Of a stretch of 63,384 bases of DNA, positions 49,329 to 54,493 are shown one piece after another. Source of the DNA: Archaeoglobales archaeon (GTDB taxonomy: Archaea; Halobacteriota; Archaeoglobi; Archaeoglobales; Archaeoglobaceae); NCBI GenBank assembly GCA_030055595.1, contig JASFYH010000008.1, positions 1 to 63,384 on the forward strand. The letters run 5' to 3'. Under the pieces are notes generated by a model. It made no database searches, was not told the DNA's origin, and worked only from the letters and a program-made list of their open reading frames with translations. The first letter of the stretch is position 1; each line of letters starts with the position of its first letter. The position numbers and the translations under genes were made by a program.

Positions 49329-50741
49329 TTACTTCTTAGGTGGCCAATTCTTCTCCATCCAGCCTTTAACTCTTCCAGAGTCTATTGGACCAACAAGCAC
49401 TTTCCAGCCGGTTTCGTCTTCAATCGCACCCTGAAGCCTTGCAGCAAGTCCCGGGATCACGAGGTATTTGTGGTTAACTTTCTCAGCGATCTTCGTTTCC
49501 TGAATGATCTCCTTTACCTTTGAAGCGGTCAGCTTTCCGCCAGCAACGCTTGCTTCAACGCCAATGCCTTCAGTGTTAACCACCAGCAACCAGCCTTTGA
49601 TCTTCGCACTGTTCAGGTCGTTCTCAACTGTGTAGTAAGTCAAGGCGAAGTTCGTAGTTAGGAAAACTGGATCCTCTGGACCGGGACTGTTAAGCTCTTT
49701 CAGACCTGCAGCAACCTGCACCGGGGTGCGCGGATCGGTGTAGATGTTGAAGCGGAGCGTTAGCGTCGGCATCACGACATGCTGATCGATGCTGTGGAAG
49801 ATCATCGCGTCGCCGTATTTCACGATGAACATTCCCGCAATAACCGCTTCCCAGTAGGCCTTTGTGACTTCGTCGCCCTCGATCAGCCATGCGGATATCG
49901 GAGTGATCAGGATCGGATATGCAACGTCTTTGTCCCCATCGAGAATGGCTTTTCTACGAAGCTGAACCACTCTCTCGAAAGTCCCCTGCAGTCCCTCGCC
50001 TAATGGCTCCGTTACTGGATCGAGCACGATCTCTTTGATTCCCGCAGACTTAAACGTGGCTGAGATACTCTTAAGCACATTAAGATCTTTTGCCCTTATC
50101 GCAACGGGCACCTTGTAATCAAGAGCGAGCTTCATGAACTCCTTCCAGTTGCCCTCAGTTGCAGCGTAGATCAATGGCTTTTGGTTTGCGACTTCTTCAA
50201 GTGCGGACTTCATGCACTCGGGGTTAAGTGCAATTAGAACCATTGGCTTTCCGTAGCTTGCAACCTTCTTTGCAACTTCTTTAAACCTCTTCGGATCGTT
50301 TGAGGTGCATCTTACCGCAAAGCCGTCGAGTGTGAGGTATTTACCGACATAGAACTTCTTGTAATTCACAACTCTCTCGCATCTCTCTTGGATCTTCTTG
50401 TCGTCAAGTGTGTCCCAGACATCGAAGAAGAATGCTGTCGGGTTAAAGAAGGTCAGCTCATGGCGGTGCAGGACTTCCTCGCCACCGATCTTTATTGCCT
50501 TGTCGCCAACGCCGACAACAACTTCTGCAATTTCGGGCGAAGTGATCTCAATGAGCTTGTCCAACTTCTCCTTAACTTTCGGATCCTTTTCGGCATCCTT
50601 AACGAGAGGCTTGCAATCAAGAACCTTTGCAGAGCGATCAAGGACATGGGAAGCGAAGCTCATGCAAGTGTCGTAGCCACATTCTTTGCAGTTCGTCCTT
50701 GGCAGGAAATTGTAGACCTCAAGTGGGCTCTTTACCTTCAT
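49329..50741 (-). CDS. cdhE: acetyl-CoA decarbonylase/synthase gamma subunit (CFeSP large)
   Basis: 470-residue large subunit of the corrinoid iron-sulfur protein, which carries the methyl group between tetrahydropterin and the acetyl-CoA synthase. The N-terminus has the [4Fe-4S] motif CKECGYDTCMSFA with a later Cys (about 18-43). The central TIM barrel (about 85-320) and C-terminal B12-binding part (VEASVAGGKLTASKV) fit the family. It lies three bases after cdhD and is the last gene of the cdhC-cooC-cdhD-cdhE operon. Confidence 0.96.
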   Translation of the reverse strand: MKVKSPLEVYNFLPRTNCKECGYDTCMSFASHVLDRSAKVLDCKPLVKDAEKDPKVKEKLDKLIEITSPEIAEVVVGVGDKAIKIGGEEVLHRHELTFFNPTAFFFDVWDTLDDKKIQERCERVVNYKKFYVGKYLTLDGFAVRCTSNDPKRFKEVAKKVASYGKPMVLIALNPECMKSALEEVANQKPLIYAATEGNWKEFMKLALDYKVPVAIRAKDLNVLKSISATFKSAGIKEIVLDPVTEPLGEGLQGTFERVVQLRRKAILDGDKDVAYPILITPISAWLIEGDEVTKAYWEAVIAGMFIVKYGDAMIFHSIDQHVVMPTLTLRFNIYTDPRTPVQVAAGLKELNSPGPEDPVFLTTNFALTYYTVENDLNSAKIKGWLLVVNTEGIGVEASVAGGKLTASKVKEIIQETKIAEKVNHKYLVIPGLAARLQGAIEDETGWKVLVGPIDSGRVKGWMEKNWPPKK

Positions 50742-50744
50742 TCT

Positions 50745-52106
50745 TCACACCTCCGCAGTGATCCATTTTCCTGCGTCAGCAACGCCACCTTTCACTTTAC
50801 CGCCGAGAGTGTTGAAGATCTCCTTAAGCACCGCCACTGCCAATGGATGCATCATCATGAATACATCTACGCCAGCCAAGGACAGCGTTAAGCCTGTTAT
50901 GATCTCCCAGATTGGTCCGCGAAGCTCTCTTGGACCCCATGGTGTGTCGCCCTCAAGCGGTGAGTCGGTCATCCATGACTCTCTCGCTCCCCAAGCGTTT
51001 GTAGTTCCGCTTGAGATCGGGAAGTTCAGATCTGTGTCGCCCTTAAGACCGCTGATCCTTATTCTTTCCATGTTCGTGAACGCATAGTCCAAGCCGTAAC
51101 CAAGGGCTGCGGTTGTTGGATCCATTACAATGCTGTTTCTCGGCATTCCCGCACGCTTCAACAAATACCTATTCAGTGTCTTCTGGTTGTTTATGTCCAT
51201 CTGCGTCCAGCTCAGCACGACATGCCCATACTTCTTCGCCGCCTCGCAGATCCTTGCCCAGTCCATGTCGAGCGTGGCACTTGCAAGCATTACCCTTTCA
51301 CCTTCGCAAACCTCTGCAGCCTTTTCAAGCACTTCTGGATCCTTGTCCTTGTTACCGCAACCACCTATGATGATCGGGCACTTTACCGCTTGCAGAACAT
51401 CTTCGATTACCTTCACAGCCTCGCTTGCTGGTGTGTTCTCAAGCAAGGGATCCGTGCTTACGAGATGGATCGTAACCATGTCCGCTCCAAACTTCTTTAC
51501 GCACTTCTTTGCCCACTCTGCTGGGCTTCCGACCACATCTTCGTAGTGAACCTTAACCGCCTTCGCAAGTGATGGTGGTCGATCGAAAACATCTATTGCT
51601 ATTGCGGGCAAATTCGGCTGTGGTTTGTCGAAAATGTAGAAAGCCAAACTCTTCTCGCCACCAAGCTTTACAACATAGTCTCTTGTTCCTCCATCCGCCT
51701 TGGTTGCGCCCAGAACAACTTCTTCAATGACTCCCGGGTATTCAATCTTTGGTGACTCAAATTTTGCTTCAATTAACTTCTCAGGAAGCTTTATTTCTGG
51801 AACTACTGCAACGGGAGCTGGAGCTACTGCGGGAGCAACTGCTTGCACCTGTGGAGCTTGGAGTGGTGCGGGAACACCAAACATTGTTGAAATTCTCTGC
51901 AGATAGTTTAGAGCCATGCTTGTGTGATAGAAGAAGTTTCTAAATTCGCTCAGTAGAGAGTATAGAGCGGTGATCGAGGAAAGATCAACTGCAGAACCTT
52001 CGAGTTCTATCTCTAAGTCCCCCTCTATCTTCACGTCTTCAAGTCTCTCTACATTGTATTCTTTCAACAACTTTAGAAAATCCTCAAGAGTATATTTGTT
52101 TGCCAA
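50745..52106 (-). CDS. cdhD: acetyl-CoA decarbonylase/synthase delta subunit (CFeSP small)
   Basis: 453-residue partner of CdhE in the corrinoid iron-sulfur protein. A helical N-terminal part (1-90) is followed by an Ala/Pro-rich linker (about 95-125) and a TIM barrel with VTIHLVSTDPLLENT, PIIIGGCGNKDKD, and WMTDSPLEGDTPWGPRELRGPIWE toward the end. The linker resembles the one in CdhC. Starts four bases after cooC. Confidence 0.96.
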   Translation of the reverse strand: MANKYTLEDFLKLLKEYNVERLEDVKIEGDLEIELEGSAVDLSSITALYSLLSEFRNFFYHTSMALNYLQRISTMFGVPAPLQAPQVQAVAPAVAPAPVAVVPEIKLPEKLIEAKFESPKIEYPGVIEEVVLGATKADGGTRDYVVKLGGEKSLAFYIFDKPQPNLPAIAIDVFDRPPSLAKAVKVHYEDVVGSPAEWAKKCVKKFGADMVTIHLVSTDPLLENTPASEAVKVIEDVLQAVKCPIIIGGCGNKDKDPEVLEKAAEVCEGERVMLASATLDMDWARICEAAKKYGHVVLSWTQMDINNQKTLNRYLLKRAGMPRNSIVMDPTTAALGYGLDYAFTNMERIRISGLKGDTDLNFPISSGTTNAWGARESWMTDSPLEGDTPWGPRELRGPIWEIITGLTLSLAGVDVFMMMHPLAVAVLKEIFNTLGGKVKGGVADAGKWITAEV

Positions 52107-52110
52107 TCTC

Positions 52111-52863
52111 TCACCCCTTCAAAAACAATTCCGCAACTTTATTCATCTTCTTATAAACTTCAGATTCTTCTCCCAGTTCAACGATTGGAGCACCCTTTAA
52201 GTCCAATTCAACGACTTTTTCGTCATAAGGGAGGATTTCGAGTAGCTTAATCCCCTCCTCATCAGCAAATTCTCTTATTCTTTTCTCCGCATCTTCGTTG
52301 GCAATGCGATTTGCTAAAAGCAATATATCCTTGAACTCCAGTTTCAGCTCCTTTGAAAGCTCTTTTATTCGCTTTGCAGTCGCAAGTCCTTTTTTGGACA
52401 TGTCAGTCACGATCAGAATGTAATCAGCACTGTCGATTGTTTTTCTGCTGAAATGCTCAAGTCCCGCTTCACTGTCAATGATCACGTAGTCGTAATGTTT
52501 TCTTAGCTTTCTGAGCACGCCCCTAAGCAACGAATTGGCGAAACAATAACAGCCTTCCCCTTCGGGGCGACCCATTACGAGCAAATCGTAGCCTTTGCAC
52601 TCACAAATAGCTTCGTAAATTTTACCTTCAAGCCATTGCTCCTTGTTCATCGTCCCCATTTCATCTCTGCTTACTTGGAATACTTCTCTGATTTCACCAA
52701 GTGTCTTTTCTACTTCAACGCCCAAGGCATCCGCAAGATTGCTGTCTGGATCCGCGTCCACAGCAAGCACTTTACTACTCTTCTTTGAAATAAAATGGAT
52801 GAGGAGGGCGGAGACAAGGGTTTTTCCCGTTCCCCCCTTTCCCGTCACTGCTACAGTAGTCAT
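52111..52863 (-). CDS. cooC: CooC-type nickel-insertion ATPase
   Basis: 250-residue P-loop ATPase of the MinD/CooC family, used to mature Ni-containing CODH or ACS. It has the deviant Walker A GKGGTGKTLVS (about 8-18), DADPDSNLA (about 37), and the CxC metal site GEGCYCFAN (about 113), which marks the CooC/AcsF branch. It lies between cdhC and cdhD, supporting a role in nickel insertion into the A-cluster of CdhC. Its ATG overlaps the stop of the micro-ORF as ATGA, and its SD is the GAGGAGGAGG that codes for the micro-ORF's acidic tail. Confidence 0.93.
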   Translation of the reverse strand: MTTVAVTGKGGTGKTLVSALLIHFISKKSSKVLAVDADPDSNLADALGVEVEKTLGEIREVFQVSRDEMGTMNKEQWLEGKIYEAICECKGYDLLVMGRPEGEGCYCFANSLLRGVLRKLRKHYDYVIIDSEAGLEHFSRKTIDSADYILIVTDMSKKGLATAKRIKELSKELKLEFKDILLLANRIANEDAEKRIREFADEEGIKLLEILPYDEKVVELDLKGAPIVELGEESEVYKKMNKVAELFLKG

Positions 52864-52946
52864 TCCTCCTCCTCAATTATGATCTCTGGGATCTTAATCT
52901 CCGCTCCTACGAGGATAAGCTTAATTTTCTTAGCTTCTTTTTCCAT
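52860..52946 (-). CDS. 28-codon micro-ORF between cdhC and cooC
   Basis: An ATG overlapping the cdhC stop (TGATG) opens a 28-codon frame ending at a TGA that overlaps the cooC ATG. The peptide's IKLILVGAEIKIPEIII then EEEE parallels the last residues of CdhC, IKLVIKDAKITIGKIVV then KK: about 7 of 20 positions are identical and most others are hydrophobic in both, while the tail charge is opposite. It may be a real small subunit, or only a coupling leader, since its Glu codons form the SD of cooC. It is too short for routine gene calling. Confidence 0.5.
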   Translation of the reverse strand: MEKEAKKIKLILVGAEIKIPEIIIEEEE

Positions 52947-54493
52947 CAGCTTTCCCCCTTTCCTTTCTTCACCACAATTTTGCCAATTGTGATCTTTGCG
53001 TCCTTTATTACAAGCTTAATCCCCGCTGGTGCTGCCTGTGGAGCGGGCATCGGCATTGCGGGTAGCTGGAATGCTGGCATTTGCATCGGCATCATTGCGG
53101 GCTGTGCAACCGCTGGAGTTGGTGCGGGAGCGGGTGCTTTTACTTCTTCCTTCACTTCCTCTTTCTTCTCTTCCTTAGCCTCAGCCCATCCTTCTGTGAT
53201 CTTCTTCCCGTCAACCTTTCTAACGACTCCCTTTACCACGGGATGATCAACCTTCTTCAGGAACTCCTTGAGCTCATCGAGGTTCTTTGCATTCTCTTCT
53301 GTGGCGATCTTGTCCCTGATATCGTCTGGGATATACTTTGAAAGTCTCTCCTTCAAGTCCTTTGGCATCCAAACAACTCTATACCAGCCACCATCAGCCT
53401 GAATGAACTTCTTGCTCCTGAAGTAAGCCATTCCAACGCCAAGGAATCCCGCAACTTGCTTTCCACCGCCAGTTTGTCCCGCCATTGTCGAGAACGTTAA
53501 GCCGTTTGGTGCTGGAGTTGCATATCCTCTGTGAACCCAGCCAATGCCATCGACTTCTGGCATGTAGAAGCCGATAACCTCAAAGCATCCACAGCTTGTG
53601 TGCGGGAACTCGAAGAAGCTGTGCAATTTAATTCTCTCGTATTCTCCACCGCTTTCTTGCTTTGCAAACTCGTTAACACCGCTGTATTCACCGCCAATTG
53701 GATCAACGACGTCTCCCTTTGGAATTGCCCTGTTCGGTCCTTCAGGATCAACCTTCGCCGCAGCTCTACCATCGAACCAGCTAATGGCTCCACAAAGCGA
53801 AGGACGATCAGGTGAGACCACGCAGACATTCGTTGGAGCGAAGCTCTGACAGAGTGTGCATGAGTAGAACTCTTGGACGTCTTCATCATGAAGCATCTCA
53901 ACTCTCTTGTCTCTCTCCTCGTAGATCGGCATCGCAATTTCCTTCAGTATTTTGTCGACCATTGCCTTGTCCGTGATATAAACCGCCTCAATCTTCTCGA
54001 TGAATGGCAATTCATTCTTGTATAGCATCATCGTAGCCTTTGCGATCTGTATTAGGCTCTTCAAACCCTTCTTAATTGGTGCTTTACCAATTCTAACCCA
54101 GACATCGTATCTCTGGTTTAGATGCATGTAGCCCTCGATGTAATTCTGGAAGTCGTGGTTTCTGCGCTCAATAACTGGCTCCAGATCGGTTTCTACCTTG
54201 CTTCCAGCGATGTAGTAGATCATGCCATAAGGATAATTTCCCCCCTCTTGCATCTCGTCAAGATCTGGGCCTACAAGGGTTACTTTCATGTCCTCTACTT
54301 GATCCGCTGGCAGTGCCATGACGAGCTCAAACTTCACTTCCTTTGGTCCACCGAGTTCGACGAACATGTCTTCTTTGCGTATTCTTTCGCCCTCATACAT
54401 CGGAGATATGTCAAACGGGAATTTCTCCTCAGCTCCTACGCTGACTTTCACTTTAGCCCCTGCAGGGATCTCAATTTTCTTTCTTTCGACCAT
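52946..54493 (-). CDS. cdhC: acetyl-CoA decarbonylase/synthase beta subunit (ACS)
   Basis: 515-residue acetyl-CoA synthase subunit, joining CO, the methyl group and CoA at the Ni-Ni-[4Fe-4S] A-cluster. A-cluster Cys are in YSCTLCQSFAPTNVCVVS and SLCGA (about 215-240) and in TSCGCFEV (about 308). The C-terminal 40 residues before the end form a Pro/Met/Ala-rich flexible linker, then a short Lys-rich amphipathic tail. It lacks the large N-terminal domain of bacterial ACS, as usual in archaea. I chose ATG 54493 because GGTGG precedes it. CdhA and CdhB are not in the window. Confidence 0.96.
   Translation of the reverse strand: MVERKKIEIPAGAKVKVSVGAEEKFPFDISPMYEGERIRKEDMFVELGGPKEVKFELVMALPADQVEDMKVTLVGPDLDEMQEGGNYPYGMIYYIAGSKVETDLEPVIERRNHDFQNYIEGYMHLNQRYDVWVRIGKAPIKKGLKSLIQIAKATMMLYKNELPFIEKIEAVYITDKAMVDKILKEIAMPIYEERDKRVEMLHDEDVQEFYSCTLCQSFAPTNVCVVSPDRPSLCGAISWFDGRAAAKVDPEGPNRAIPKGDVVDPIGGEYSGVNEFAKQESGGEYERIKLHSFFEFPHTSCGCFEVIGFYMPEVDGIGWVHRGYATPAPNGLTFSTMAGQTGGGKQVAGFLGVGMAYFRSKKFIQADGGWYRVVWMPKDLKERLSKYIPDDIRDKIATEENAKNLDELKEFLKKVDHPVVKGVVRKVDGKKITEGWAEAKEEKKEEVKEEVKAPAPAPTPAVAQPAMMPMQMPAFQLPAMPMPAPQAAPAGIKLVIKDAKITIGKIVVKKGKGES

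Follow-up and report, generated by a model that had tools for sequence, protein, structure and literature searches.

What does the short reading frame between cdhC and cooC in this archaeal cdh cluster encode, and what could its product do in the ACDS complex? We addressed this question in the window, the whole stretch of 63,384 nucleotides analyzed here, and in related genomes. The gene order in the window is cdhC-micro-ORF-cooC-cdhD-cdhE, and the micro-ORF is found at the same place in relatives. The relevant features are as follows.

49329-50741, minus strand: cdhE, ACDS gamma subunit, same cluster (Pfam/NCBIfam profile matches)
50745-52106, minus strand: cdhD, ACDS delta subunit, same cluster (Pfam/NCBIfam profile matches)
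52111-52863, minus strand: cooC-type P-loop ATPase (nickel-loading), its start overlapped by the micro-ORF stop (PF01656 CbiA, E = 2.5e-21)
52860-52946, minus strand: micro-ORF, 28 amino acids, type-B tip microprotein MEKEAKKIKLILVGAEIKIPEIIIEEEE (frame, orthologues, purifying selection, profile homology to the CdhC tail)
52864-52874, minus strand: codons of Glu25-Glu28, GAGGAGGAGGA(A), also the cooC Shine-Dalgarno-like site (sequence)
52949-54493, minus strand: cdhC, ACS beta subunit, 515 amino acids (TIGR00316, E = 3.6e-238; PF03598 and PF19436)
52949-53023, minus strand: C-terminal tip of CdhC, GIKLVIKDAKITIGKIVVKKGKGES, type A, by profile homology a paralogue of the micro-ORF product (runs to the last TIGR00316 position)
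52954-52958, minus strand: GGGGG, Shine-Dalgarno-like, seven bases 5' of the micro-ORF ATG and within the last cdhC codons (sequence)
53024-53215 (approximate limits), minus strand: Pro/Ala/Met-rich flexible linker from the CdhC core to the tip (sequence)

Organization of the micro-ORF

The micro-ORF comprises 28 codons followed by TGA. Its ATG (52946-52944) and the cdhC stop codon (52948-52946) share one base in the sequence TGATG, and at its other end the sequence ATGA combines the cooC ATG with the micro-ORF TGA (52862-52860); the sharing of start and stop codons with both neighbours given in a preliminary description is thus seen at either end. The same description had the Glu codons double as the Shine-Dalgarno site of cooC, and the last micro-ORF codons, GAGGAGGAGGAA, do form such a Shine-Dalgarno-like site. 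With its own start and its own Shine-Dalgarno-like site (GGGTGG at the equivalent position in genus g2), the micro-ORF is a separate gene, and its product has no linker to the ACS core. The window peptide contains neither Cys nor His, and the peptides of relatives contain at most one His. No Pfam or NCBIfam model matches the micro-ORF peptide.

Conservation and selection in Archaeoglobaceae

We searched 55 genomes of the family for CdhC and read 48 cdhC-cooC junctions. The micro-ORF is present at 37 of these (36 from an automatic scan, together with L045/L132 recognized by eye), distributed over nine of the 12 genera (g1, g2, g6-g10, g12 and most of g13). The orthologous products are 22-43 residues long; their length varies, and the frame is undisrupted. 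At the other 11 junctions (g3, g4, g5 and two of g13) the micro-ORF is absent; in g3, cdhC is coupled directly to cooC with no leader frame between them. The micro-ORF is dispensable, because g3, g4, g5 and part of g13 keep both cooC and cdhC with its tip. On the CdhC tree, the presence of the micro-ORF requires five changes, as would result from a single gain in the family's ancestor followed by about four losses.

Archaeoglobus fulgidus is among the carriers (genome G001, which we take to be strain DSM 4304; its peptide is MEEEVKKVKLILKGAQIHIPELIIEEEE). A transcriptome paper on A. fulgidus assigns cdhCDE to AF0376-AF0379, that is, to four consecutive tags. By gene order these tags correspond to cdhE, cdhD, cooC and cdhC, so the A. 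fulgidus micro-ORF seems to be unannotated.

Sequence variation at the micro-ORF has the pattern of a protein-coding gene. The pN/pS ratio is 0.082 in the window's own genus and 0.040 in the neighbouring genus g2, each over 23 codons from which the cooC Shine-Dalgarno codons were excluded, and 0.081 over a 15-codon core in g7 and g8. For g1 and g2 combined, the correct frame yielded 0.163 and the other five frames 0.3-6. The entropies at the three codon positions are 0.87, 0.38 and 1.60. The glutamates also persist where their codons are not needed as a ribosome-binding site: genus g2 encodes them as GAG GAA GAA GAA, with non-Shine-Dalgarno codons, and L030 and L034 retain GAA GAA GAG although the cooC Shine-Dalgarno-like site sits further downstream. 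Amino-acid conservation, which the preliminary description had considered might be confined to the GAG codons of the Shine-Dalgarno site, thus extends outside them (pN/pS 0.04-0.08). Judged by these substitution patterns, the micro-ORF is a protein-coding gene, and we infer that it is translated in the cell.

Two further observations concern CdhC in this family. The CdhC of one g4 genome (L046, G017) is very divergent and sits on a long tree branch; cooC adjoins it directly, with no micro-ORF. In addition, most genomes of genera g3, g5-g9 and g13 of family f1 contain a second CdhC-like frame (e.g. G026:C1:1423693-1424400), mostly of ~360-430 residues and of about 180 residues in g5 and g13. 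These frames share 31-43% identity with the A2/A3 region of ACS, a stop falls within the match in some of them, and none were seen in g1, g2, g10 or g12.

Kinship with the C-terminal tip of CdhC

A resemblance of the micro-ORF tail to the CdhC tail had been pointed out from the window alone, and it holds up well. Comparison of the window peptide with its own CdhC tip gave seven identities over 17 residues and a BLOSUM62 score of 36, against a mean of -3.3 (sd 10.1) for shuffled sequences (P = 2e-4). At the family level, hhalign of a profile of 33 micro-ORF products against one of 30 CdhC tips yielded a probability of 96% and E = 4.7e-9. The preliminary description had spoken of mimicry; the relatedness is real, and the profile homology indicates that the micro-ORF product is a paralogue of the CdhC tip rather than a chance mimic. 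At the DNA level the window micro-ORF and the tip stretch share only 26 of 51 positions, mostly first and second codon positions, so any duplication would be old. No further tip-like motifs came to light in the window's own genome, where the micro-ORF profile and the CdhC-tip profile hit nothing beyond their respective sites.

The tip ends nearly all archaeal CdhC examined and follows a Pro/Ala/Met-rich linker, which was predicted to be disordered in the close relative L012. It belongs to an extension of ~75 residues that corresponds to residues ~398-472 of Methanosarcina thermophila CdhC (PDB 9c0s/9c0t). In the cryo-EM study of the M. thermophila complex this ACS C-terminal extension was not resolved and was described as "of unknown function"; it was proposed to matter for the swing of ACS between CODH and the corrinoid protein (PMC11474084). 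Among solved structures, only 9c0s and 9c0t contain the tip in their sequence, and the tip is unresolved in both.

Two positions of the motif separate two types of tip. Type A, the CdhC tip, has Asp or Asn at position 7 and Lys or Arg at position 14, whereas type B has Gly7 and Glu14, both of which occur without exception in the main group of Archaeoglobaceae and in a second Methanothrix tip gene (see below). The window peptide has Gly7 and Glu14 in place of the CdhC residues, and hence represents the paralogous type and not the tip itself. The micro-ORF peptides of g12 and g13, with Lys, Arg or Ser at position 14, are intermediate and nearer to the CdhC tip.

Detached tips in Methanotrichaceae and other families

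Beyond Archaeoglobaceae, the survey covered the window's own phylum. In most of it the gene after cdhC is cooC or a different one, with no micro-ORF in between. In three families (f8, f9 and f20) the tip is detached from CdhC. In f8 and f9 another sequence forms the end of CdhC, and linker and tip are encoded by a small gene of their own.

Family f20 is Methanotrichaceae and includes Methanosaeta thermophila (G113) and M. harundinacea 6Ac. The order in this family is cdhC, tip A, tip B, cooC, cdhD, and in M. harundinacea cdhB-cdhC-tipA-tipB-cooC-cdhD. Both tip proteins begin with an arm of the MxKLVLKKKE type followed by an Ala/Pro stretch. Tip A consists of MGKLVLKKKE, the Ala/Pro linker and GIKLVLKDAKITIDKVVLAK, a tip like those of CdhC elsewhere; tip B has a nearly identical arm and the tip GIILELRGASVHIQEVVIKQKK, with Gly7 and Glu14. 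When a joint type-B profile was compared with 393 genomes, the best matches were the Archaeoglobaceae micro-ORFs and the Methanotrichaceae tip B genes; the remaining matches were weaker and almost all came from CdhC-attached tips or detached tip A genes. The conserved peptide of the Archaeoglobaceae junctions thus has a counterpart in Methanothrix. The two type-B groups may have either a common origin or arisen by convergence, a comparison that rests on 17 residues. Since the tip is a separate gene in Methanotrichaceae, its supply in trans is evidently possible, and both tip types occur there side by side.

Several loci show further variations. The single detached tip genes with linker in f8 and f9 (L181, L189, L195) have no type-B partner between cdhC and cooC. 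CdhC of L183-L186, L196-L198 and L233, all from Methanotrichaceae, lacks the usual linker and tip, the tip being a separate gene, and ends in a stretch of ~50 residues (..ELKEKVIAFIEKYGGEIDTDNVKNELLMSEGQFMQVVEALQADGVLE) with a winged-helix-like look. In G188, also from Methanotrichaceae, a second locus lacks cdhC, and a free and intact type-A tip gene (L232:4940-5098) comes directly after cdhA-cdhB there; the sister genomes G223 (L231) and G381 (L234) retain cdhC at the matching locus. This single case would fit a tip that works apart from CdhC.

Charge contrast between the two tips

In most genera Glu14 of the micro-ORF product stands against Lys14 or Arg14 of the CdhC tail at a conserved position of the motif, and a mostly acidic end against a basic one. 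Together, these contrasts suggest a heterotypic pairing in most genera. The opposite charge noted from the window sequence, with four Glu at the end of the peptide and Lys at the end of CdhC, therefore applies to the window and most relatives but not to part of g13 or to Methanothrix, where the small protein is basic; moreover, the window CdhC ends ...KKGKGES, which is basic without a terminal Lys. The notion of a strict acidic partner of a basic tail is weakened accordingly, and the residue at position 14 in g12 and g13, which is not Glu, sets a further limit to the charge argument. A universal rule of charge pairing was rejected, both partners being basic in some lineages.

A candidate accessory peptide of ACDS

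The best explanation, which we put forward tentatively, is that the micro-ORF encodes a free paralogue of the short beta-strand tip found at the end of the flexible arm of CdhC, and that this paralogue is associated with ACDS. The explanation builds on the gene itself, on how well it is conserved, on its homology to the tip and its position in the operon, and on the second tip gene with the same signature beside the detached CdhC tip in Methanothrix. Translation, binding and an effect on ACDS are what we infer from these. The type-B peptide would be made together with CdhC and CooC and would pair with the CdhC tip or bind at the docking site of the tip; such binding could help in positioning or latching the arm of ACS, either during assembly or while ACS moves between CODH and the corrinoid protein. 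The tail of CdhC thus seems to have a partner or rival that is encoded apart from it. Binding, unlike homology, is a conjecture; two AlphaFold models on natural read-through fusions were of low confidence and revealed no docking. In a model of the whole CdhC each tip forms a short beta pair with a pLDDT of about 40-53, and a fold search of the PDB gave no matches. A more specific version, which we regard as doubtful, is that type A, as a rule fused to CdhC but free in Methanothrix, pairs with type B in a heterotypic clasp that would hold or release the ACS arm, in a complex with an overlooked 28-residue subunit.

The same homology to the tip, together with the lack of a catalytic core, the coupling to cdhC and cooC and the shortness of the product (22-43 residues), would also suit a competitive inhibitor or placeholder. 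Such a microprotein would act against its parent by sitting where the CdhC tip docks on CODH, CFeSP or ACS, so that apo-ACS or an immature complex is kept open until the tip displaces it. We consider this unlikely: the second tip of Methanothrix shares the long arm of the detached CdhC tip, a feature more in keeping with a subunit than with an inhibitor, and the class-specific residues 7 and 14 suggest a surface that differs from that of the tip. Alternatively, as the preliminary description proposed, the peptide might link CooC to ACS during nickel insertion into the A-cluster. It always lies directly 5' of cooC, overlapping it in the window, and it precedes cooC in Methanothrix as well; CooC is known to help in the nickel loading of CODH/ACS (PMC6006190). 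Such an adaptor role is nonetheless quite improbable, given that many genomes have cdhC and cooC side by side without the peptide, and that the window peptide has no Cys or His and hence no CooJ-style nickel binding.

The two readings that deny the peptide a function fare worse. A purely regulatory leader, the main alternative of the preliminary description, would do no more than pass ribosomes from cdhC to cooC, as the TGATG and ATGA couplings and the Glu codons in the cooC Shine-Dalgarno site would allow. By itself it does not account for the low pN/pS outside this site, the glutamates kept as GAA codons in g2 and kept in L030 and L034, the homology to the CdhC tip, the type-B counterpart in Methanothrix, or the direct coupling of cdhC to cooC without a leader in g3. 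As the whole explanation it is strongly disfavoured and very improbable; translational coupling to cooC in addition to a role of the peptide is likely. At the RNA level, there was no Rfam match and no unusual fold (z 0.58). That the frame is a decaying duplicate of the cdhC end, retained solely through its operon position, is scarcely credible: its relatedness to the upstream gene's end and the several independent losses would agree with such a relic, but strong purifying selection and conserved type-B residues unlike those of the parent do not.

Relation to known systems and implications

The peptide that we regard as a candidate accessory component of ACDS has its closest relative in the archaeal CdhC C-terminal extension at the end of TIGR00316, with which it shares the 17-residue motif (E = 4.7e-9) and the gene cluster. 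Unlike this extension it is free of core and linker, and where the extension has Asp/Asn7, Lys14 and a basic end, it has Gly7, Glu14 and an end that is mostly acidic. The detached tip genes of Methanothrix are likewise free small frames between cdhC and cooC, and the second of them shares Gly7 and Glu14; unlike the window peptide, their products have a basic N-terminus, a long Ala/Pro arm and a basic C-terminus, and the CdhC tip is detached as well. Flexible Ala/Pro-rich arms occur in multienzyme complexes such as those of pyruvate dehydrogenase E2 and in biotin carriers. By analogy, the tip system may likewise have a small module at the end of a mobile linker, able to dock or swing; unlike those proteins, it has no lipoyl or biotin site and gave only composition-driven family matches. 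The nickel chaperone accessory proteins CooJ and CooT are also small and encoded near cooC and CODH genes (PMC6006190), but the window peptide has no His-rich or Cys metal site and no sequence resemblance to them. The open-access papers searched held no description of the peptide. As far as that literature goes, it is an undescribed variant of the C-terminal tip of ACS, itself a known element.

A free natural tip under strong selection in Archaeoglobus, together with the separate tips of Methanothrix, an obligate acetate-splitting methanogen dependent on ACDS, provides a handle on the function of the ACS extension. Because the tip can evidently be provided in trans, it is possible to add, remove and trace short peptides and thus to probe tip function. 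Should the two tip types indeed form a clasp, archaeal ACDS would have an overlooked class of detachable tip modules, missed by annotation and unseen in structures.
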